Source: Alistipes sp. (GTDB lineage: Bacteria; Bacteroidota; Bacteroidia; Bacteroidales; Rikenellaceae). From it: 52,968 nt of DNA. The number at the start of each line of letters is the position of its first letter. The first letter of the stretch is position 1. The translations under genes and the position numbers were made by a program. Location of the stretch: the NCBI GenBank assembly GCA_017937765.1, contig JAGBCY010000004.1, positions 1 to 52,968 on the forward strand. The letters run 5' to 3'. Under the pieces are notes generated by a model that saw only the letters and a list, made by a program, of their open reading frames with translations, did not search any database and had not been told where the DNA came from. This document shows, one piece after another, positions 505-10,906 of this stretch.

Positions 505-1701
505 CTAAAATGCCTCGTTGAGGCCGAGGATTAGATAGCGGCTGTTGCGACCAAAGGCCATATCTAAACGTATGGAAGTGAGTGCGTTGAGTGCCCAACG
601 GAGACCGATGCCATAGCTCGGTAGGAGGCGGTCCCACGACGGGCGATCCGTGGCCGAGAATGTGGTGCCCACACCGCCCCACGCTGCGACGCCTAAGCCA
701 TCCCATATATGTTGGCGGAGCTCGACTTGTGCTGCGACGAGGCCATCACCGTTATACCTGCCGGGGAAGTAACCGCGCATACGGTTGTCGCCACCAAGCT
801 CGGCGCGTAGCAGCCACGGCGTTGCGGCGTTATGGAACTCGCCGTAGATGTCCAACGCGAGGGTGCCACCGCGCCATAGTGGCTGGAAGTAGTCGAAGGT
901 GATGTTGAGCTCGTAGAGGTCGCGGTCGTAGCTGCCCGCAAAGCGTGGTCGCCAGATGAACTCCGCACGGGCGTAGATGCCGCGTGTGGAGTGTGCCGCC
1001 GCTCGGCGCGAGTCGTAGCCGAGGCCTATGCCGAGACCCGTAGTTGATAGGGTAGTTGCTTTAGTATCAATGATTTGCTGGGTGCGCGAGTCGAGGTCGA
1101 TGGTAGCTACGCGCAGGAAGTCGGCCGCGAGGCTTAGGAATAGCCTCGCGGTTAGCGCGTAGCGATAGTCGATCCACACGCCATACTCGCGGGCGGTATA
1201 TTCGCCGGGGAGGTCGCGCGCGGAGGTGGCATAGTCGAGGCCCCAGATGTAGGTAGGCTCGGAGCGTAGCTCTGCGCCATATTCCAAGCGGTGCTTACCG
1301 TCGCGGAAACTGTTGCGGCCGAGGAGCGAGATGCTGTAATATCCCGTGAGTGAGGCAGTTGCTGAGAGCGTCAGCGTACCAAGAGCAGTGTTGCGCGTGC
1401 CGCGTTGACGGTAGTAGAGGTTGCCTATGGCAGATAGTCGCCAGCCCGTATTTGCCGAGTATCCCGGGCCGCCGATGACGTTGAAGCGCACGTTGCGGTC
1501 GTTGAGGTCCGCGGAGAGGTAGTCGTCGATGGTGGATGTGGGTGCGCTATCGGCGGGGTGGTAGCTGTAAACTATGTTGTCGCCGCCGATGGTTGTGACG
1601 CTTGAGTGCTGTGCCCGAAGCTCCACGGACGAAAGCAACAACAGGACCGCCGTTAAGACGATCCTGATAGGTGTAATTAGTTGTGTTTTAGCGTATTGCA
1701 T
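505..1701 (-). CDS. Outer membrane beta-barrel protein of the Omp85 (BamA/TamA surface antigen) type
   Basis: This is a predicted 398-residue secreted protein. It has a signal peptide (MQYAKTQLIT start, hydrophobic VLTAVLLLLSS, ending near LRAQ), alternating beta-barrel sequence and a C-terminal aromatic residue (final NEAF). The segment NRMRGYFPGRYNGDG matches the conserved (V/M)RGY/F..GRY region of the Omp85 barrel, and it is followed by a strand typical of the family. There are no obvious POTRA repeats, so it is a barrel-only member rather than BamA itself. I start it at 1701 rather than at the longest open frame (1824). The 1701 start gives the signal peptide, and its ATG overlaps the stop of the upstream gene as TAATG, which implies translational coupling. 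Substrate and partner are unknown. Confidence 0.8.
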   Translation of the reverse strand: MQYAKTQLITPIRIVLTAVLLLLSSVELRAQHSSVTTIGGDNIVYSYHPADSAPTSTIDDYLSADLNDRNVRFNVIGGPGYSANTGWRLSAIGNLYYRQRGTRNTALGTLTLSATASLTGYYSISLLGRNSFRDGKHRLEYGAELRSEPTYIWGLDYATSARDLPGEYTAREYGVWIDYRYALTARLFLSLAADFLRVATIDLDSRTQQIIDTKATTLSTTGLGIGLGYDSRRAAAHSTRGIYARAEFIWRPRFAGSYDRDLYELNITFDYFQPLWRGGTLALDIYGEFHNAATPWLLRAELGGDNRMRGYFPGRYNGDGLVAAQVELRQHIWDGLGVAAWGGVGTTFSATDRPSWDRLLPSYGIGLRWALNALTSIRLDMAFGRNSRYLILGLNEAF

Positions 1702-2219
1702 TAGCGCAATGGCTCGGCTGCTGCGATGAATCGCTGCTGCTCCTCCTCCGACATCTCGCCCTTGTGTAGGTAGACGAGCTCGCCAGCCTTGTTGACAAGC
1801 ATAATGACGAACATATCGTTGCAATCACCTAAACGCCAAGCACTTGAGATGTAATGGTCGGGGTCGCAGAGGATAGTCGCGCCATTCTTAGCCGTACGCG
1901 CATCGGCAATCTTACGCACGAGCGAGTTGGGATAGATGGCATCCTTGAGGTTTACGATGCCGAAGCCCTCGATGTTGGGGCCCTGTACGCGGCCTGTCTC
2001 CTCGATGTAGGTGATGAAGTCGTGGTTCTGCTTTGGCACCTCGGGGTCGACGTAGAAGATCAGGAGGTTCTTCTCGCCCCACCACGGCAGACGAGCCTTG
2101 TTGGTGTCGAGATCCTGTACCTCGACGTTACGCACCTTGCGCGGCAGACTCTGTGCCTCGGCAGTGAGCGTGAGGCCAAAAGAGGCGATGACGATAAGAA
2201 TTAGAGCTTTTAGTTTCAT
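1701..2219 (-). CDS. Secreted thioredoxin-fold protein, YtfJ-like
   Basis: This 172-residue protein has a clear signal peptide (MKLKALILIVIASFGLTLTAEAQ). The mature part has a thioredoxin-like layout: a strand LLIFYVDPE after a charged start, a second strand GFGIVNLKD, GATILCDPDHY, and a late strand MFVIMLVNKAGELVYLHKG. There is no CXXC pair, so it is not expected to be a classical disulphide oxidoreductase. The pattern resembles YtfJ-type periplasmic proteins, whose function is unsettled. Its stop overlaps the start of the Omp85-type barrel gene, so the two are probably made together and may act together at the envelope. Confidence 0.6.
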   Translation of the reverse strand: MKLKALILIVIASFGLTLTAEAQSLPRKVRNVEVQDLDTNKARLPWWGEKNLLIFYVDPEVPKQNHDFITYIEETGRVQGPNIEGFGIVNLKDAIYPNSLVRKIADARTAKNGATILCDPDHYISSAWRLGDCNDMFVIMLVNKAGELVYLHKGEMSEEEQQRFIAAAEPLR

Positions 2220-2255
2220 AGCTATTTGTTGATGTTATACGTTCATAATCATAGG

Positions 2256-2532
2256 TTTACAATCGGTAAACCTGAGTTTTTTACGGCTGACAAACCAGCG
2301 TTTTTACAGTCGGTCTCCCTGTGTTCTTGCAGTCGACAAGCATACATTATTGCGGTCGTCTACTTATGTCTTTACAGTTGGCAACCCAGCATTTTGCAGT
2401 CGGTCTCCCTGTGTTTTTGCAGTCGACAAACCTGCGCTATTACGGTCTGCAACCTCCCTATATTCTGCAATTGGTAGCCCCGCGTTTTCATTGCCGGTAA
2501 CCCCATATTTTTGCAGTTCGCCCCCAGCTTTT
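2256..2532. repeat. About eleven degenerate 24-bp tandem repeats in a gene-free region
   Basis: Read on the plus strand, the units follow the pattern TTTGCAGTCGGTAAACCTGC with variation, with a spacing of 23-25 bp. Two near-identical longer blocks, starting TGCAGTCGGTCTCCC and then TGCAGTCGACAA, occur about 100 bp apart. Because the period is a multiple of three, the open frames on both strands show an 8-residue rhythm, but none looks like a real protein. The whole stretch 2220-2812 holds no convincing gene. It contains these repeats, a possible promoter at 2588-2595 and the inverted repeat at 2730-2779. Confidence 0.75.
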
Positions 2533-2587
2533 CCTAGAATGCAACCTACATACCTTCGGCTGAATACGTGGGAATTTATTACCGATG

Positions 2588-2595
2588 CAAAGATA
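2588..2595 (-). promoter_or_regulatory. Possible -7 box for the thioredoxin-fold/Omp85 pair
   Basis: TATCTTTG on the minus strand fits the Bacteroidetes TAnnTTTG box. It lies about 370 bases upstream of the gene starting at 2219, so the transcript would carry the 24-bp repeats in its leader. No clear -33 TTG is seen at the right distance. Confidence 0.4.
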
Positions 2596-2729
2596 GTAAA
2601 AATATTGTTATTGCCGTCACTTGTGATATTTGGTTTTGACCAATGAATGAGAATTAATTGCCAAACTACCAAATGATTAAACAAACCATAGAAATTGTTA
2701 AATGAAAGATTTTGAAGGTTTATATTGTA

Positions 2730-2779
2730 ATCTTACAAGAGATAGGGTCACCATTTGGTGACCCTATCTCTTGTAAGAT
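2730..2779. terminator. Perfect 24-bp inverted repeat, likely bidirectional terminator of the tubulin-like operon
   Basis: The arms 2730-2753 and 2756-2779 are perfect complements with a 2-base TT spacer. The structure lies 34 bases past the stop of the protease gene (2813). Its position suits a terminator, but no long U run follows on either strand, so another role (a protein binding site or an island boundary) is possible. Confidence 0.6.
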
Positions 2780-2812
2780 ATGTTTACTGTATAATCTACA
2801 TCAACAATTAAT

Positions 2813-5800
2813 TTATTTTATTCCTCGAGTACATTCGCAATCGTCGAATTCTAGTGTTGCAATACTTGTGTATAACATGGTATGAGCATTATCCCAACAC
2901 AGTAAACTACAATTAGGTGATATTGCCTTATTTAATGCTGAGCTATACTGGTTTGCTTGGTATGCAATAAGATATTCGGAACGTTGCATATTGGGGTTTG
3001 CAATAGAACTTAGATGAATAAATATATCTGCTTTGTGAACTAACTCTGTTGCTGTGCTTTTCTTTACACCTTTTACCCAATCAACCGACGGTTTAACAAT
3101 ATGCTCAGTAAGGTTGAACTTAGCAATTCTATCGTTATTGAATAGCTTTTCTACGACCGTATTTATAAGTTCTTGGCGATACTTTAGAATATAGCTTTCG
3201 TCTACTGAGTATTCCTCTATATTATTAGTGAAATCGATGTCTAAGAATTTATCGTTACTAATGGACTTGAATAGTACGTCCGCTAATTTTTTGTCCAGTA
3301 ACGAAATATTTGGAGTCTCCTTATTAAGTGTCATATCATCACTCTTCACTACTTCTAAATACCATGCACGCAGATTGTTAATGAGTGATATATATTTAGT
3401 GTATAACGAGCTAAAGTGAGATTGTAGTCTTAATATTTCACGTAGTAGATGCCATGCAGCAAAGGTCTTGAACTTAAACTGAGGTATGATATCCTGAATC
3501 ACTTGTATTCGATCAATAATATGTTTATGTTCTAATCTCTCCTTACTGATATTTTCGCGATGTACTAACCAATTCTTATAGACTTGATAAGCATAGAATA
3601 TGACAATGCCTAATACTACCAACGTTGGCCAAAAACAACTGACCGTCATAATCTCTATCCATTGCAGATCGGTAAAGATTAGAGGTACAAAAATAGAGTT
3701 CCATAGATAGCATACAAAGTATACAATCGCAGTGATGCCAATGGCGTATAACATCTTCTTAATGTTATATTTCTTGGTTTCATTTATCGCTTTCTCAATG
3801 TTTTCCTCGATCTCAAGTTTCTTATTGCGTAGCTCCTTCTCTTTGATATCGAGAACCGTTAGCGCAGCATTGATAAACTCGTTACGTTTATTCGGATATG
3901 ATGCCAAATTTGAAGTTAGATCATCTAAATATTTTGATAATCTGTCGCGTTCGCTATATAGTGTTATGAGATCGTCACCGTGTTTGGCCACTAAACTCTG
4001 ATTGATGTAGTATCGCATACGTATATCATCGTCGTTTATTGTCAATGTTGGCACATCGAAATCCTTTGAATCTGAATTTTGATGATTGTTCTGATTCTCT
4101 ATATCTTCGGTGCTACTAGGAATATGGATCTCTGTAATGATTGCTGCAAAGTCCATAAGGTTGGGGTGTTCTATGTAGGCATATGGCATGTAGCAGTAGC
4201 CGTTATCACCCCATGATGTACCCCACGAGTTGCGAACAATAAAACATTGTAGTTTATCGCTATAACCTACAATTGCCATTTCGTGTCGGCCGTGTTTGTT
4301 TTTCTCTTTCTCTTCGGCAGAGGCATTTATGGCCGAATCTACCTCAATGGAAGAGGGCATAGGAACGTATCCGTCAACTGATGCTTTTGTAAAGAAACTT
4401 TCGCATAGCAGGAAGCCTCCTGAAATAGGATGTCCTTCCGCAAGAACGGCTTTGAAAACATCCCTTTTGTGCTCAACGTTCATTGCCTTAATGAGGAGTC
4501 GGTTTTGTGCCTCTTTGTATGCTTCATCGCTTGGCCGTTTATTGTACACAAAATCGTTGTAAGGGCACTCTTTCTCAAGCGGTAATCCAAACTTGTTAAG
4601 AGACTCTATGGCGTAACGTTCACGAGAACCAGTATCTGTCTCAATAGATACGTCTCCAGTTCTGTCTAAATCGCGAGCATTGTAGTATAGGAATGCTTCG
4701 CTAAGATCAAGCAACTTGTTTGTCTTGTTGTAGACAATATACTCGAAAATAGACGTGATAGTAAATGCCACGCAAGCACCTTGTTTACCCTGATTGCGAA
4801 TAGTGTTAAAGCGACTGCGTAAGTCAACACTTTCAGGTAGTTTTGTGATATTGGTCGGAACATATGTTTCGTCCAATAGTTCAGGCTTTAAATCATCGGG
4901 AAGAATGCGGAACTCGTCATCGTTGAAATGGAAAATGCCATTATCCTTATCAAAGAAGCATTTCTCAACATTTTCGATATCAGTGATCTGTTTGCGTAGA
5001 TCCTCTACTTCATCACTTAAACGACGAATTTCATTCTCGGTGTTTATAATCTTAGCATCGAGGTCTTTTAGACTCTTTATTGGATTGATTAGTGGCTGGC
5101 CATCATTCTCAAAATATGCGCCATAATTGTTCGTAATAAAGTAATTGATACTTTCTGTAAATAAGTCTCTGACGCAGGTCTTATCCTCGTTATAGATTGA
5201 ATCGGTAAATAGGGAGCATTCAGTCTTCGATAGTAGAGCGGCAAGTATTGCAGCTTTCTTTGTGATACTCTTTTCGTGCTTGAAGATATCCTCACATGAT
5301 GCGATTATTGAAGCAACTTCTTTTTGGAAATATTCCTTCGCTTCAGCGTCATCACGTATCGGGCTCTTGAAAAGTCTTGAAAGGAGTTCTTGTTTGTCTG
5401 CAATGATACTATCGGCTTTCTCTTGGGCCTCGTTAACATCCACCTTAGTGCAATTAACTGATGCTACGTCAATGGAGTTACAGAAAGCTTGATTCATTAA
5501 GTAGTCCACAAGCATATATTTATCAACCTGTAGCGAGGCAACACCGAAGGCAACGACGTCTTTATATGCAAGTGCTGGAGGAAACAACTCTTGGAAGAAT
5601 AGGGCAGAGGCTACAACGAATTGAGCAACAACCTCCTTGAGCCCTTCTTCTGTAAGTCCCAACGATACGCCATTGTATGTTGTATTTTGTAATACAACAA
5701 GCATTGAGGCGGGGTCCATATTCTGTTTGCTACGGAACGCCTTATATCGCGCGATATGTTTCTTCAACGGTGTCTTGATCTCATACGACGGTTCTATGAG

Positions 5801-6271
5801 TTTCGCGAGGTCGTCGAAGTAACCCATAAAATTAATCCGCTTGGGTCTATTTAATGAGTTGATACCAACGTACAAAGCCTCGAAGATATCGTACGCTTCG
5901 GCTTTGTAAAGTGGAAAGTGTAGAATTATGGTCAGTCCCTGATTTGCCTCTAGATTATTTATTGTAAATATTTCGTTATAGAGGTTTGACCAGACAGAAC
6001 CAAACTCTTCAATAGTTATTGAGCTACTAATTGAAGAAGGTGTAGTCCAACTTGTTTCTAGATAGCGGTCAAGGCAACTCATCGAGTTATCATCGGTAGT
6101 AGACGATATGTTCAATCTGGTTATATTGAGATTTTTATCAGCATAATCTACTACCAAGTAGGATATATTGGAAGAGGTCGTGCCTCCGCAATATTTATAC
6201 GCGGCACGACCAATTCCTTCTACTAGTTGAGAGTACTCCTTGCCGATGAATATATGAACAAAACTCGGCAT
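2813..6271 (-). CDS. Membrane protein with degenerate tubulin-like N-terminus, coiled coils and a papain-like (C1) protease domain
   Basis: The product is 1152 residues. Residues about 455-720 are a papain-family peptidase: oxyanion Gln in RNQGKQGAC, catalytic Cys500, His663 in GRHEMAIVGY and Asn681 in VRNSWG, all in the right order, so it should be active. Residues 1-265 align by eye with the neighbouring tubulin-like GTPase, strand for strand, but have lost both glycine-rich loops. A coiled coil follows near 400-435. Two membrane segments lie near 840-860 and 878-897, with further coiled coil at 900-975. If the tubulin-like part is cytosolic, the protease faces the cytosol. There is no signal peptide. 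The gene follows the tubulin-like gene by 9 bases, so the two are co-transcribed. It is AT-richer than the flanking genes, which suggests transfer. Domain calls are firm for the protease, inferred for the N-terminus. The biological function is unknown. Confidence 0.8.
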   Translation of the reverse strand: MPSFVHIFIGKEYSQLVEGIGRAAYKYCGGTTSSNISYLVVDYADKNLNITRLNISSTTDDNSMSCLDRYLETSWTTPSSISSSITIEEFGSVWSNLYNEIFTINNLEANQGLTIILHFPLYKAEAYDIFEALYVGINSLNRPKRINFMGYFDDLAKLIEPSYEIKTPLKKHIARYKAFRSKQNMDPASMLVVLQNTTYNGVSLGLTEEGLKEVVAQFVVASALFFQELFPPALAYKDVVAFGVASLQVDKYMLVDYLMNQAFCNSIDVASVNCTKVDVNEAQEKADSIIADKQELLSRLFKSPIRDDAEAKEYFQKEVASIIASCEDIFKHEKSITKKAAILAALLSKTECSLFTDSIYNEDKTCVRDLFTESINYFITNNYGAYFENDGQPLINPIKSLKDLDAKIINTENEIRRLSDEVEDLRKQITDIENVEKCFFDKDNGIFHFNDDEFRILPDDLKPELLDETYVPTNITKLPESVDLRSRFNTIRNQGKQGACVAFTITSIFEYIVYNKTNKLLDLSEAFLYYNARDLDRTGDVSIETDTGSRERYAIESLNKFGLPLEKECPYNDFVYNKRPSDEAYKEAQNRLLIKAMNVEHKRDVFKAVLAEGHPISGGFLLCESFFTKASVDGYVPMPSSIEVDSAINASAEEKEKNKHGRHEMAIVGYSDKLQCFIVRNSWGTSWGDNGYCYMPYAYIEHPNLMDFAAIITEIHIPSSTEDIENQNNHQNSDSKDFDVPTLTINDDDIRMRYYINQSLVAKHGDDLITLYSERDRLSKYLDDLTSNLASYPNKRNEFINAALTVLDIKEKELRNKKLEIEENIEKAINETKKYNIKKMLYAIGITAIVYFVCYLWNSIFVPLIFTDLQWIEIMTVSCFWPTLVVLGIVIFYAYQVYKNWLVHRENISKERLEHKHIIDRIQVIQDIIPQFKFKTFAAWHLLREILRLQSHFSSLYTKYISLINNLRAWYLEVVKSDDMTLNKETPNISLLDKKLADVLFKSISNDKFLDIDFTNNIEEYSVDESYILKYRQELINTVVEKLFNNDRIAKFNLTEHIVKPSVDWVKGVKKSTATELVHKADIFIHLSSIANPNMQRSEYLIAYQANQYSSALNKAISPNCSLLCWDNAHTMLYTSIATLEFDDCECTRGIK

Positions 6272-6280
6272 AATACGTTA

Positions 6281-9199
6281 TTATAGGTTCTTTAAGGCAC
6301 TAATAAGATGCTTCTCAATGTAATCCCATTCGGCGTCGAACTGAGCTACATCTGCGCTATTTTGCGCATAGTACGTCGCGCTGTGCTTGTCAGTACAAGC
6401 TATACGATCGATATAGTCATTCTTGCCATCTTTGATAATGTTCGAGACAATATGGCTGTAGTAGTCAATACCACGCGCCTGAATATCTGCCTTAATTTTG
6501 TCAGCAAGTTCGGTTTTAAATTTGGGGAAATCCAAAGCCTTGAAGTCGTCAAAAGCACGCTTACGATTGCCTGTGGCAGTACCTCCTCCGACTGGATACC
6601 ATTTGTCATTTTTACCTTGTGATTGGCTCTTATCCTGCCAGAAGTAGTATGCTTTACCCATAAAGCGAATATACTTCGGGTGCTCAATCTCCTCCTTGGA
6701 CTCGATCTTGGTAGTGTTCCCGTTAGAATCCTTCTCCATTATGTATGCGGTTTCCTTGACATCCCTCCAACCAAAGATATGTCCGCAAATCCAATATAAT
6801 AGAGCCTCATTTTGAGCCTCCGGCTTCAGCTTAAAGTCAGTTGAACGCATTCTTTCAAAGATACTCTTATCGAAGTGAGGATTGAATGTCGTTGCACCAG
6901 CACTCAACGAGTCGTTAAGTAATGTCTCATACTCGCCCTTAATTGTTTGTTCGTCGAAAGCTTCGATGCAGTATGGAATTACTGCATAGTCAGCACGATA
7001 TACGATAATTTTCTGTTTCATAGAATCGAATGTCGACGAAAGGAATTGTTTAGACAAATTCCTCATAAAGTTGTCGTCGCGCTCAAAGCGTGTCTTAACA
7101 TCGTTAGGACGGTATAACGATATGAGGCAATTTTGTATGATCAAGTCAGTCGGACATTGATTCTCGCGAGTCTTGCTTGTCTGGCCTCGATCATCAATAG
7201 GTAACAGACGGCTAGATTTAGTAGCAATCTCAAACTTTAAAGCATCATATTGCTCCTGTGTAAGGTTCTCAATAATATCAGTTATAATAACATTTTTGTA
7301 CTCCTTAGCACGGGGAAGTTCTGCTACGTATACATCAATTGCGGGCTTGAGCTCATTTCTAATGTCAATATCCAGCAACGACTTTTTAAGGGTATTCATC
7401 AAACCAATAAGGTTAACCTCGCCATCCTCCAATGTCATATTCAGTCGCTCGTCAGTAGATAAATCGTACTCAAAAGTTAATGAGGACGAATTTAAGTTCT
7501 GCTTATCATTTAACTCAACTTCATAATCCTCGCGGAGGGTACCTAAAGCCACTTTAAGCTCTTCGAGACGAATTGCTGTCTTTCCGATAATGCTTGATAG
7601 CTGAATGAATATATCTCGAGCAATCTCACGACGTTTAATTTCCCAGTTGAACTTCAACAACTCTTTAGCTCCTCGCTTAAGTGTATCAAGACGTTCCTGG
7701 CAACCGCTCTTAAACTTAATTAACTTTCTCGAGTATTCACTATAGTCAGTAAAATTCTTCTTAAAGATGGTTGCCAGAGAATTCTTCTCATTGACGAGAA
7801 TTACAACTTCTCCTTCCATCTCGCCACGATATTTCTCACACAATTTCTTCAACGAGCGGAGGAATACGATGGCATTACCAACGCCATTTTCCTGACGAAG
7901 CATTTGGTCGATCTTCTCGTTAAGCATACGCTCCTTCTCTGCGACCTCCTGATCTAAACATCCCACCTTGGGGAAAGATTGGTTGATATACTCTAAAAGT
8001 TTCGACTCGGTCTCGGCAACGGGGTTATCAATGTCAACGAGAGCTAACTCTACACCTTCAATTTTTTCAGGTGCAACAATAGAGTCGATAAGCATATTAT
8101 ATGTGTTACCGTCCTCTCTAATTCTTGCCTCTTCGGTCCAATTTTGAGCGAGCTGGCTAACATCTGTTCCCTCTTGTGTGGTCATACGGATGAGTTCTAT
8201 GGCTGCCTTATAACCATAAATCTCTGCTAATAAATCGCCCTTATAAACAACCTGGCAACCACCTAATGCTTGAACCCAACCTTTCTTGGGAGTAATATTA
8301 AATTGTCCATTTCGCCAATTAGTGTTGCTAAGTCCTGAGACAATTTGTGTGCCCATATCGCCACCTGAAGCAAACAAGCAATTACCTATCACCTCACATA
8401 ACTGTTGAATTCCTTTTATCTTATTTCCCTTTTGCGTGTTATTATCTATTACGAAAAACTCGTCATAAATCGGCTGTTTAAGGGTTTTCTTTTGGTTGTT
8501 GATCTCAATCTCAATAGGATTTTCGAAGCTGGCGTTCATCAAATAGTCAAGATCCATAATTGCCGAATAGGCATTGGCAACAACGCGAGGAGTCTTGTTG
8601 CTGCTGGGGTCCCACGTGCGGAACACTCCGTGGATAACGCCATAGCCAATAATTCGAGCTTTTTGGCTGTACTTGCTACGGATCAGATCGGCAACGTTAA
8701 GGAATGAACCACTACCAGTACCGCCTGCCAATGACATTACGATATGGATATCCACATTGCTATTAATAGCGTTGGCATCAGCATCCTCAATATTTTTTAC
8801 GTTATTCCAGCAGCCCTGAATGAATGTCATTATTTTTGAACTAATCATTTCGGTATAGAAACGACCAGTTGTGCGTACTTGGCTTGCTCCGTCTGAAATC
8901 TTATCTCCAATAAAACCTGCATTGCCAGAGAACATCCACTGGTACTTACCCTCTTTGCAACCCTGCTCATACAGAGTTCTCGGGTTTGATCCAAGATTGA
9001 GTTCTAGAAAGTCTGATGCAATGTCAGTGGGAAGCGTGGGATCTGATGCTGCAGCTAGGTCAAAATCTATTGCTGCAAATGCAATCTGTTTAGGAATATT
9101 ATCCTTACCATAAGCATCCTCAAAATGCTTCTTTGTCTGAGCAATGGCACGAATGCCCGTACCTCCTAAGCCTACGTAAATAGTTGGTCTAATAGCCAT
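6281..9199 (-). CDS. Bacterial tubulin-like GTPase (Tubulin_2 family)
   Basis: The product is 972 residues and starts with the nucleotide-binding loop YVGLGGTGIRAI (glycines at 10-15). The tubulin signature loop SLAGGTGSGS is at 157-165, followed by the expected helix and the strand ARIIGYGVI. These are the T1 and T4 elements of the tubulin/FtsZ fold as found in the Tubulin_2 group of large bacterial proteins. The remainder (about 350-972) is long, mostly helical and charged, with likely coiled-coil stretches near 400-580, and has no domain I can name. No membrane segment is seen. It is the middle gene of the AT-rich operon, after the lipoprotein gene (62-base gap) and 9 bases before the protease gene. 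Filament formation and GTP hydrolysis are expected from the fold but not shown. Confidence 0.85.
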   Translation of the reverse strand: MAIRPTIYVGLGGTGIRAIAQTKKHFEDAYGKDNIPKQIAFAAIDFDLAAASDPTLPTDIASDFLELNLGSNPRTLYEQGCKEGKYQWMFSGNAGFIGDKISDGASQVRTTGRFYTEMISSKIMTFIQGCWNNVKNIEDADANAINSNVDIHIVMSLAGGTGSGSFLNVADLIRSKYSQKARIIGYGVIHGVFRTWDPSSNKTPRVVANAYSAIMDLDYLMNASFENPIEIEINNQKKTLKQPIYDEFFVIDNNTQKGNKIKGIQQLCEVIGNCLFASGGDMGTQIVSGLSNTNWRNGQFNITPKKGWVQALGGCQVVYKGDLLAEIYGYKAAIELIRMTTQEGTDVSQLAQNWTEEARIREDGNTYNMLIDSIVAPEKIEGVELALVDIDNPVAETESKLLEYINQSFPKVGCLDQEVAEKERMLNEKIDQMLRQENGVGNAIVFLRSLKKLCEKYRGEMEGEVVILVNEKNSLATIFKKNFTDYSEYSRKLIKFKSGCQERLDTLKRGAKELLKFNWEIKRREIARDIFIQLSSIIGKTAIRLEELKVALGTLREDYEVELNDKQNLNSSSLTFEYDLSTDERLNMTLEDGEVNLIGLMNTLKKSLLDIDIRNELKPAIDVYVAELPRAKEYKNVIITDIIENLTQEQYDALKFEIATKSSRLLPIDDRGQTSKTRENQCPTDLIIQNCLISLYRPNDVKTRFERDDNFMRNLSKQFLSSTFDSMKQKIIVYRADYAVIPYCIEAFDEQTIKGEYETLLNDSLSAGATTFNPHFDKSIFERMRSTDFKLKPEAQNEALLYWICGHIFGWRDVKETAYIMEKDSNGNTTKIESKEEIEHPKYIRFMGKAYYFWQDKSQSQGKNDKWYPVGGGTATGNRKRAFDDFKALDFPKFKTELADKIKADIQARGIDYYSHIVSNIIKDGKNDYIDRIACTDKHSATYYAQNSADVAQFDAEWDYIEKHLISALKNL

Positions 9200-9261
9200 A
9201 ATGTAAGTTTTTAGTTAATATCGTTTATGTTTTTTATCTTATTTGGTCGCTTCATCTTCTA

Positions 9262-10272
9262 TTATACGGCGTGTATTTTTATTTTTTTGCCACTATCGGT
9301 GGTGATGATGAAATCTTTACCACGTATAGGTTCATATGGAGTATACGTTACACCTCCGCGAATTCTAAGACGGTATCTGTCTTTACAAGTTATTGTGACT
9401 CGAGATGTCCAAATATCGTTCACTACAACTATATCTTGTACGCGGAATATTTTTTTTAATATACCCTGCTTTATTGGTCGGTTAGTAAATATGAGCTTAC
9501 AAAACCCCTTAGTTCTTATTTGCAATGTCTCTGTAGAGGAGGGATATGTTATATATATGCTAGGAAAGCGCAGGTGCTTATAAAAATTTGGACGAATAAT
9601 AATATACCATATGAGCAACAATGCTAAAATGGCAAATACAATAATCCAAAACACCTTGCTACCAGGGTTGTATACATTCTCCTTGACGACATAGAAACCA
9701 TCGCTATTCAGTGAGCCTAACTGAAATTGCAGGTCGCTCGCTTTTATAGTCTCTTTTGGCCCCTTTCCGATGTCTGCCTCTTTATTCTTAAAGCTAATAC
9801 CTCCATTCTTACTTCCACAAGCAACCAAATATAGATGATGCTTGCCCTCAGCAGCGGTGTTAAGGAACTCGATACCTAAGTTGAGCTCTATATCATCTAT
9901 ATTTTCACCTGTCTTATATGAGTTATCTTCAATAGTAGCATCTTCAATAGTGAGTGCAAATTGGTTACTCTCCTGCCTCTGGCCATTAACGTAGATTACG
10001 ATATCTTTGTTAGGTTCATTCTTCTCGCTATGTGTGCTAATGTAGAAATTAATAGAGCCGCCCCGACTGAACATCTGCTGTGCATCAGGAGTGAGGCTGA
10101 ACTGAAGGGTACGCTCCATTATTACAGGCTTGTACTCCTTAAAGATTGACGACTCGTAATACTCCGTGTGTCCCCATTCGCTGCCAACCTCTTTCTCTCC
10201 TTCGCAAGCAATGGCAAACATAGCAACTGTCACTAATGTGACTAACTTGTATATCTTGTTCATAAATTTCAT
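9262..10272 (-). CDS. Lipoprotein with a second, internal membrane anchor, first gene of the tubulin-like operon
   Basis: The product is 336 residues. A lipoprotein signal peptide ends in FAIAC, with Cys23 as the likely lipidated residue. Residues about 25-205 look like a beta-rich envelope domain. A clear transmembrane helix (FWIIVFAILALLLIWYIII) spans about 208-226. Residues 230-336 form a basic beta-rich C-terminal domain that would lie in the cytosol. This topology would let it connect the envelope to the cytosolic tubulin-like protein and the protease. I do not recognise the family. An alternative start at Met4 would shorten the signal peptide by three residues. No consensus -7 box is visible upstream on this strand. 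Confidence 0.7.
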   Translation of the reverse strand: MKFMNKIYKLVTLVTVAMFAIACEGEKEVGSEWGHTEYYESSIFKEYKPVIMERTLQFSLTPDAQQMFSRGGSINFYISTHSEKNEPNKDIVIYVNGQRQESNQFALTIEDATIEDNSYKTGENIDDIELNLGIEFLNTAAEGKHHLYLVACGSKNGGISFKNKEADIGKGPKETIKASDLQFQLGSLNSDGFYVVKENVYNPGSKVFWIIVFAILALLLIWYIIIRPNFYKHLRFPSIYITYPSSTETLQIRTKGFCKLIFTNRPIKQGILKKIFRVQDIVVVNDIWTSRVTITCKDRYRLRIRGGVTYTPYEPIRGKDFIITTDSGKKIKIHAV

Positions 10273-10306
10273 AGTTAATATAGATATCGAGGGGTGAGAT
10301 GTAATT

Positions 10307-10336
10307 TTGTAGCAGAGTAAAAATGTGCTATCTTTG
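10307..10336 (+). promoter_or_regulatory. Promoter of the LMW phosphatase gene
   Basis: A -33 TTG (10307-10309) and a -7 box TATCTTTG (10329-10336) are separated by 19 bases, an excellent Bacteroidetes promoter. The start codon is at 10427. Confidence 0.75.
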
Positions 10337-10426
10337 TTTGCACTATGTGGCGAATTTGGGTGTAATGCCTAAAATAGAACGCCGTAATGAAATGCGAAAA
10401 CAATAATGATTAAAAGAACATAGGAT

Positions 10427-10906
10427 ATGAAGCAACGTATATTATTTGTCTGCCTCGGGAATATATGTCGGTCGCCGGCAGCAGAGGCAATGCTGAGACT
10501 CCTCGTTGAGCGTGAGGGACTTAGTGATGGTGTCGAGATTGATTCGGCGGGTACGTATGGCGGCCACAGCGGCGAGCGTTCCGATCCGCGTATGAGGCGT
10601 GCTGCGGCGGCAAGAGGTATCGAGATGACACATCGCGCACGTCAGGTTCGTGAGGAGGACTTCGAGCGTTTCGACCGCATCATCGCGATGGACGACAACA
10701 ACTACGAGGCACTATTTCGTCTTGCGCCCGATCGCGCTGCGGGGCAGAAGATTTATCGTTTTCGGGAGTTCTTGCGTCGCAATCCCAACTGGTCGTACAT
10801 CCCCGATCCCTATTACGAGGGTCACGAGGGTTTCGAGCTGGTGTTGGATCTGTTGGAGGATGGGTGTCAGACGATTGTGGATGAGTTGAAACAGGGGGCG
10901 AAATAG
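10427..10906 (+). CDS. Low-molecular-weight protein-tyrosine phosphatase
   Basis: The product is 159 residues, the normal family length. The phosphate-binding loop CLGNICRS (Cys9 nucleophile, Arg15) sits at the N-terminus. The general acid Asp127 is in the conserved DPYY segment, 118 residues later as expected. Such enzymes remove phosphate from phosphotyrosine in proteins and in bacteria are often tied to exopolysaccharide control, but no capsule gene or tyrosine kinase is nearby. It is preceded by a strong promoter at 10307-10336 and appears to be a single-gene unit. It is read away from the tubulin-like operon and is GC-rich like the rest of the chromosome, so it marks the right edge of the AT-rich island. 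Confidence 0.93.
   Translation: MKQRILFVCLGNICRSPAAEAMLRLLVEREGLSDGVEIDSAGTYGGHSGERSDPRMRRAAAARGIEMTHRARQVREEDFERFDRIIAMDDNNYEALFRLAPDRAAGQKIYRFREFLRRNPNWSYIPDPYYEGHEGFELVLDLLEDGCQTIVDELKQGAK

Follow-up and report, generated by a model that had tools for sequence, protein, structure and literature searches.

The locus raises the question of what task unites a lipoprotein, a tubulin-like GTPase and a papain-like protease that are encoded side by side in Alistipes sp. They lie in a stretch of 52,968 nucleotides (nt; contig JAGBCY010000004.1, here termed the window), where three intact minus-strand genes at 2813-10272, separated by gaps of 62 and 9 bases, follow each other in transcription order as anchor gene, FtsZl1 gene and third gene. 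We read this operon, tentatively and at slightly under even confidence, as encoding a protease that is tethered to the membrane and controlled by a GTPase. The operon would have been acquired laterally and would most likely serve as a conflict system of the FtsZl1/vWA class, acting against invaders or upon envelope damage. The genes and the segments that matter for this reading are:

2813..6271, minus strand: third gene, 1152 amino acids (aa; Pfam, alignment, AlphaFold)
3581..3754, minus strand: membrane hairpin of the third protein, about residues 840-897, basic residues on both sides (hydropathy, AlphaFold)
4184..4840, minus strand: papain-like protease domain, residues 478-696, triad Cys500/His663/Asn681
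5462..6271, minus strand: N-terminal alpha/beta domain of the third protein, about residues 1-270 (profile comparison, AlphaFold)
6281..9199, minus strand: FtsZl1/Tubulin_2 GTPase, 972 aa (PF13809, E 1.1e-53; family alignment)
8708..8725, minus strand: T4-type loop GGTGSG, residues 159-164; G159, G160, T161, G162 and G164 invariant in 16 aligned rows
9155..9172, minus strand: T1-type loop GLGGTG, residues 10-15; G10, G12, G13, T14 and G15 invariant in the same number of rows
9262..10272, minus strand: anchor gene, 336-aa lipoprotein (blastp to relatives; hydropathy)
9595..9651, minus strand: internal membrane helix of the anchor, residues 208-226 (Kyte-Doolittle mean 3.0)
10204..10206, minus strand: Cys23 of the anchor, which we take to be the lipobox cysteine (sequence FAIAC)

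Proteins of the tubulin superfamily are known for the filaments they form in cell division and DNA segregation. The second protein of the operon matches PF13809 (Tubulin_2) from position 1 to 355 of the 356 positions of the profile and is, as judged from its sequence, a member of the FtsZl1 family and a predicted GTPase. The third protein is composed, from the N-terminus, of an alpha/beta domain, a coiled coil, the papain domain, the membrane hairpin and a C-terminal domain. Peptidase_C1 was recognised by Pfam (E 1.2e-17), and the predicted papain fold presents the oxyanion Gln as well as Cys, His and Asn. The triad is intact in 11 of 11 proteins, that of the window included (Cys and Asn by script in all, His by script in ten and by eye, as HGM, in the protein of locus L040). 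By family and predicted structure, the third protein is a papain family C1 peptidase and a predicted protease. Its papain domain would face the cytosol, as implied by the basic residues around the hairpin and by a sequence that shows no visible signal peptide.

Base composition sets the operon apart. Its GC content is 0.398 vs. 0.536 for the rest of the window, and at third codon positions the three genes reach 0.39-0.43 vs. 0.699 (standard deviation 0.038) in 26 neighbouring open reading frames (ORFs), i.e., they lie seven to eight standard deviations under the neighbour mean. The composition of the operon is foreign. An earlier note on this DNA had described three adjacent genes in one direction, rich in A+T, a GTPase with intact tubulin loops and a protease with its Cys, His and Asn next to two membrane helices, and had proposed a signal-triggered proteolytic system, possibly for stress response or defence, in which the GTPase is coupled to a membrane protease and an envelope sensor; the frames and gaps, the composition, the invariant loop glycines, the conserved triad and the hairpin all bear out this description, and a GTPase-protease system coupled to the membrane fits.

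The N-terminal domain of the third protein is common to versions of this protein that carry a papain domain, a transglutaminase domain or no peptidase. When these domains were compared on their own, those of the papain set (12 rows) matched those of the other set (4 rows) with E 2.8e-8, while a first comparison between the third protein and the versions without papain had given no match in this region. The domain is devoid of the G-rich T1 and T4 loops. In hhalign, the N-terminal domains of FtsZl1 aligned with three overlapping sets of third-protein N-domains in the same register (p 0.019, 0.0079 and 0.008), centred on the FtsZl1 segment VIDN..NG and the residues after it. Of 60 column shuffles per set, 1, 0 and 0 attained the score of the real alignment; the single case, in the test of the papain set, scored 135, far over the rest and unexplained. 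AlphaFold predicted an alternation of alpha and beta elements with a pLDDT (predicted local distance difference test) mostly about 80 and lower at residues 58-66 and 104-106. A fold search with the third protein was filled by papain and listed no tubulin, and tests little beyond residues 436-717. We regard the domain as a candidate relative of FtsZl1 without nucleotide loops, a putative "pseudo-tubulin," with the odds somewhat in favour.

The three genes recur as a unit. Against genome contigs, P0002 alone gave no match and a three-row alignment was needed to find relatives; scanning the contigs with alignment A1 yielded 15 Bacteroidales loci (L024-L038). In all of these and in L040, a same-genus locus from genome G864, the window-type FtsZl1 gene sits behind an anchor/vWA gene. 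The third gene is readable in 14 of these 16 relatives (L026 and L031 end at the contig edge before it). It encodes a papain domain in ten (L024, L025, L027, L028, L029, L030, L032, L033, L035, L040) and a transglutaminase core in one (L038; PF01841, E 1.7e-9), and no peptidase was recognised in L034 and L036, judged by motif and alignment, and in L037, judged by Pfam. The third gene of L038 (5673-8612) carries the transglutaminase-like core at its C-terminus instead of a papain domain, which amounts to a natural swap of peptidase modules; the same locus has a second anchor-like gene (2083-2889). In both trees of the GTPase, the papain rows form one group (support 66/92 and 94/91), outside of which the papain-less and transglutaminase lineages are found.

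The distribution of the unit is sporadic. In the family, 2 of 101 sampled genomes gave a match to P0002, the other genome besides that of the window being G864, whose copy is only 26% identical; in the order, 8 of 393 sampled genomes did so. With the family model A7, matches at E up to 1e-10 were obtained in 13 of the 393, three of them over the full length, and A1 matched 6 of 395 sampled genomes of the class. Model A6 proved misleading as a survey query (220 of 393 genomes) and was dropped; among the matches listed, the non-self ones fell in the papain region. Viral contigs scanned with A1 held no relative. A 9.8-kb faecal scaffold from a phage collection, on which a vWA gene occurs together with a distant Tubulin_2-like one, is unverified and was not taken as phage.

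The site of the operon can be delimited by comparison within the genus:

1701-2219, minus strand: redoxin-like gene, flank
2220..10426, no strand: inserted stretch between the redoxin-like and low-molecular-weight (LMW) phosphatase genes (same-genus loci)
2730..2779, no strand: near-perfect palindrome of 50 nt, probable terminator downstream of the operon (sequence)
10427-10906, plus strand: LMW phosphatase gene, flank

The two flanking genes are divergent neighbours elsewhere in the genus, and the phosphatase gene is present in 29 of 31 genus genomes. Eight same-genus loci, drawn from phosphatase-positive genomes, were compared with the window, where the gap between the flanks measures 8.2 kb. 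Since the flanks sit about 214-275 bp apart in four of the eight (L071, L072, L074, L078), the operon is an 8.2-kb insertion. In two others (L073, L075) the flanks are separated by unrelated genes of surface-protein-like type, which take up about 3.4 kb, and in the last two (L076, L077) the phosphatase gene is reversed yet still adjacent. Visual inspection of the insert's ORFs (80 aa or longer) revealed no integrase, transposase or phage gene. The operon was apparently acquired laterally. The idea of a transferred locus without an integrase nearby, put forward in the earlier note, is supported by the empty sites within one genus and by the foreign composition, just as its expectations that the genes stay together in diverse Bacteroidales and occur sporadically (2 of 101 family genomes; three full-length cases in the order) agree with what was found. 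Its use of the repeat edge at 2730-2779 as a sign of acquisition was given up: the palindrome, considered as an insertion end, is better taken as a terminator. Degenerate direct repeats lie at 2256-2532, in the space that separates the operon from the redoxin-like gene. Because unrelated surface-protein-like genes (L073:4941-8009, L075:6719-9254) fill the same intergenic site in two further species of this genus, the site is a variable spot.

To which known systems does the operon belong? The earlier note knew of no named system with this composition; the GTPase nevertheless falls in a named family, FtsZl1, with known vWA partners, which Makarova and Koonin defined in 2010 together with a proposed role in membrane remodelling (PMC2875224). 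The window operon resembles these systems in its GTPase of the Tubulin_2 type, which has GTP loops at the N-terminus and a helical C-terminal part, in the vWA partner of its relatives (in those systems frequently bearing a signal peptide or a membrane segment), in operon organisation and in patchy distribution. It differs in the papain-bearing third protein; the word papain does not occur in the available part of that article. Kaur et al. (2020) listed tubulin-plus-vWA loci among predicted conflict systems (PMC7159879). Their GAP1-N2 systems share with our operon a tubulin with coiled coil, membrane vWA proteins and a predicted conflict role, and two tubulin genes in Firmicutes are a further likeness. 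A TRAFAC GTPase or GAP1-like match was not obtained for any of the three proteins (Pfam, E up to 1; the coverage of GAP1 by Pfam is unchecked), and the single papain passage in the accessible portion of the text deals with a peptidoglycan peptidase linked to EAD1 rather than with tubulin. The ternary MoxR-vWA systems likewise combine vWA with peptidases, among which transglutaminase-like ones recur (PMC12839542, PMC8195603, as far as these sources are accessible), and vWA-peptidase pairs are there presumed to be inactive until triggered (PMC12839542). FtsZl1 here takes the place of the MoxR AAA+ ATPase, and the protease is of the papain family. Xylellain of Xylella fastidiosa (PDB 3ois), a cysteine protease of 291 residues, is without N-domain, hairpin or tubulin partner. 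We found no account in the open-licence literature that pairs FtsZl1 with a papain protein. As FtsZl1 and vWA are known and this partner is undescribed there, we read the operon as a variant of the tubulin-vWA scheme; what is new, as far as sequences tell, is the exchangeable papain or transglutaminase output fused to a conserved third component.

A further parallel is provided by Thermaceae plasmids (NZ_CP021131.1, NC_014213.1, NC_019387.1), on all three of which a vWA gene is followed by a tubulin-like gene, a hypothetical gene and brxL. In a midpoint-rooted tree of GTPase domains (29 rows; L032, a near-copy, was omitted), the window type of Bacteroidales, with 16 rows, forms one group (support 100/99) that joins the three Thermaceae proteins (95/95), its nearest FtsZl1 outside the group; the Thermaceae rows are flagged for skewed composition and four outside rows for length. 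The remaining ten rows, of which five are other FtsZl1 from Bacteroidales, fall apart from this clade. The islands thus share with the window type the order vWA, FtsZl1, third gene and the grouping of FtsZl1; they differ in the presence of brxL and in a third protein of about 680 aa without convincing homology. As a homologue, this third gene was rejected: three of four profile scores fell within the range of 40 shuffles, and the fourth (papain-less set), 17.1 vs. a shuffle maximum of 14.2, covered 16 columns with E 0.16. In the loci themselves (L122, L124, L125) the row of vWA, tubulin-like, hypothetical and brxL genes has the appearance of a BREX-like (bacteriophage exclusion-like) island. 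An insertion sequence precedes brxL in one of the three, and RecQ, methyltransferase, WYL, DUF1156 or Swt1-HEPN genes occur near one or another of them. The text of a 2026 BREX survey has no occurrence of tubulin or FtsZ.

The membership of the second protein in FtsZl1 also suits a membrane-remodelling machine without any role in conflict, in which the GTPase would shape or mark the inner membrane, the anchor would tie it to the envelope and the protease would mature or recycle a structural protein. The vWA, membrane and OmpA neighbours of FtsZl1 reported in the accessible part of PMC2875224 speak for such a machine, as does the placement of two of the three proteins at the membrane by anchor helix and hairpin, but sporadic presence, empty sites within one genus and a peptidase domain that is exchanged or absent suit an accessory conflict system better. 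We regard remodelling as improbable.

The anchor bears on a second alternative. It consists of a periplasmic part, the membrane helix and a predicted cytosolic tail of about 110 aa, and Pfam gave a chance-level match only. In blastp it matches the anchor of L040 (29% over 328 aa, E 1e-37) and the C-terminal portion of the vWA fusion in L028 (31% over 113 aa, E 1e-10); because of these matches the window lipoprotein is identified from sequence as the anchor half of a vWA-anchor pair. In hhalign it also matches the two fusion proteins of L010/L011 (E 2.3e-6). All 16 of 16 relatives have a vWA gene, or the end of one, immediately upstream of the unit, either separately before a lipoprotein anchor (L025, L027, L031, L037, L040) or fused to the anchor (L026, L028, L029, L030, L032-L036, L038), while the contig of L024 carries only the tail of a vWA-type gene. 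The label vWA rests on mutual blastp homology among the proteins of the relatives, for L029 on inspection by eye; Pfam supports it above cut-off for L027 and below cut-off for L031 and L028, and gave no vWA match (E up to 0.01) for L025, L032, L037 and L040. The lipid anchor and membrane helix of the earlier note's "envelope sensor" are retained, and the sensor itself is recast as half of a pair. The window copy alone has no vWA gene beside its operon, and two vWA queries found none elsewhere in its genome, a search without positive control in an assembly that is 85.7% complete. The copy may sense differently or be partly disabled. That it is a decaying remnant, no longer working after loss of its vWA sensor while its relatives do, would account for both absences and yet sits poorly with three intact frames, conserved GTP loops and papain triad and operon-like spacing; we consider it even less likely than remodelling.

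We thus return to the GTPase-controlled protease, the control of the protease by the GTPase being the component that we judge somewhat more probable than its opposite. The anchor, alone or together with a vWA partner, would sense a change in the envelope and pass it through its membrane helix to the cytosolic tail, and this signal would nucleate GTP-dependent assembly of FtsZl1. The third protein, with its hairpin at the membrane and its N-domain bound, would cluster on the assembly; the protease would be switched on by crowding or once the segment that precedes the papain domain is released, and would then cut cytosolic targets and halt growth or infection. Clustering on a filament as the trigger is a rather doubtful element. 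The most specific version, in which the active GTPase and a loop-less pseudo-tubulin-papain partner co-assemble at the membrane and induced proximity yields an inflammasome-like, GTP-gated anti-phage protease with exchangeable papain or transglutaminase module, is unlikely, by a little less so than remodelling. If true, assembly driven by GTP that gates a protease would be a new mode of control in bacteria, parallel to animal inflammasomes. For FtsZl1, described in 2010, the available portions of the literature offer predicted roles only (PMC2875224, PMC7159879). Coupling to a papain domain with intact triad supplies a readable output, proteolysis, and so makes the role of FtsZl1 directly testable.

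A role in defence or conflict is favoured on a mixed genomic context, with brxL, CRISPR/Cas, SIR2-like and Fic genes on one side of the balance and housekeeping-like flanks on the other, and remains a tentative assignment, a little short of an even chance. In L040, one side of the operon is occupied by Fic genes and SIR2-like genes (the latter by Pfam only), the other by a CRISPR (clustered regularly interspaced short palindromic repeats) array with Cas2/Cas1. L024 adjoins the PADLOC candidate PDC-S27 (E 1e-199), and HigB-like and helix-turn-helix genes lie a few kb upstream in L025; the PADLOC scan of Bacteroidales flanks covered these three loci. Fifteen plasmid records carry FtsZl1, and among the seven neighbourhoods read brxL was found in the three from Thermaceae and caspase-family genes beside the one from Azospirillum. 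The array in L040 (15560-18600) is long, with units of 66 nt, and lies with the Cas2/Cas1 genes right next to the operon copy.

Several results weigh against the conflict-system reading in addition to the missing vWA half. None of the three proteins has a match in PADLOC-DB 2.0 (E up to 0.1), and membership in a catalogued defence system was discarded; NCBIfam returned two chance-level matches, far under the cut-offs. The other Bacteroidales flanks look mostly like housekeeping genes in their ORF lists, three of the seven plasmid regions hold no recognisable defence gene, and the third proteins of Thermaceae and Bacteroidales gave no convincing alignment. For the N-domain vs. FtsZl1 the hhalign probability was 2-5%, and comparison of the full-length third protein with FtsZl1 gave no match in the N-domain, so that the "pseudo-tubulin" of the earlier note is supported by a weak profile match of the N-domains and did not show in the full-length comparison.

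Least likely is a self-killing module apart from infection, a suicide protease restrained by FtsZl1 and the anchor and freed by other stress or by rival bacteria, since its large multi-domain proteins differ from small addiction toxins and no phage or plasmid gene was seen by eye among the insert ORFs, even if the cytosolic side implied for the papain domain and the lateral insertion are in its favour.

Two distant loci deserve mention. Downstream of the papain-less operon of genome G368 (L011:14465-17842), a DnaJ-domain protein (PF00226, E 6.7e-19) is encoded, as is a long protein with repeats that look Sel1-like on inspection. Another neighbourhood of tubulin and protease occurs on plasmid p2 of Azospirillum sp. 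TSA2s (L126), where a distant tubulin-like gene is located near three caspase-family genes and OmpA genes.

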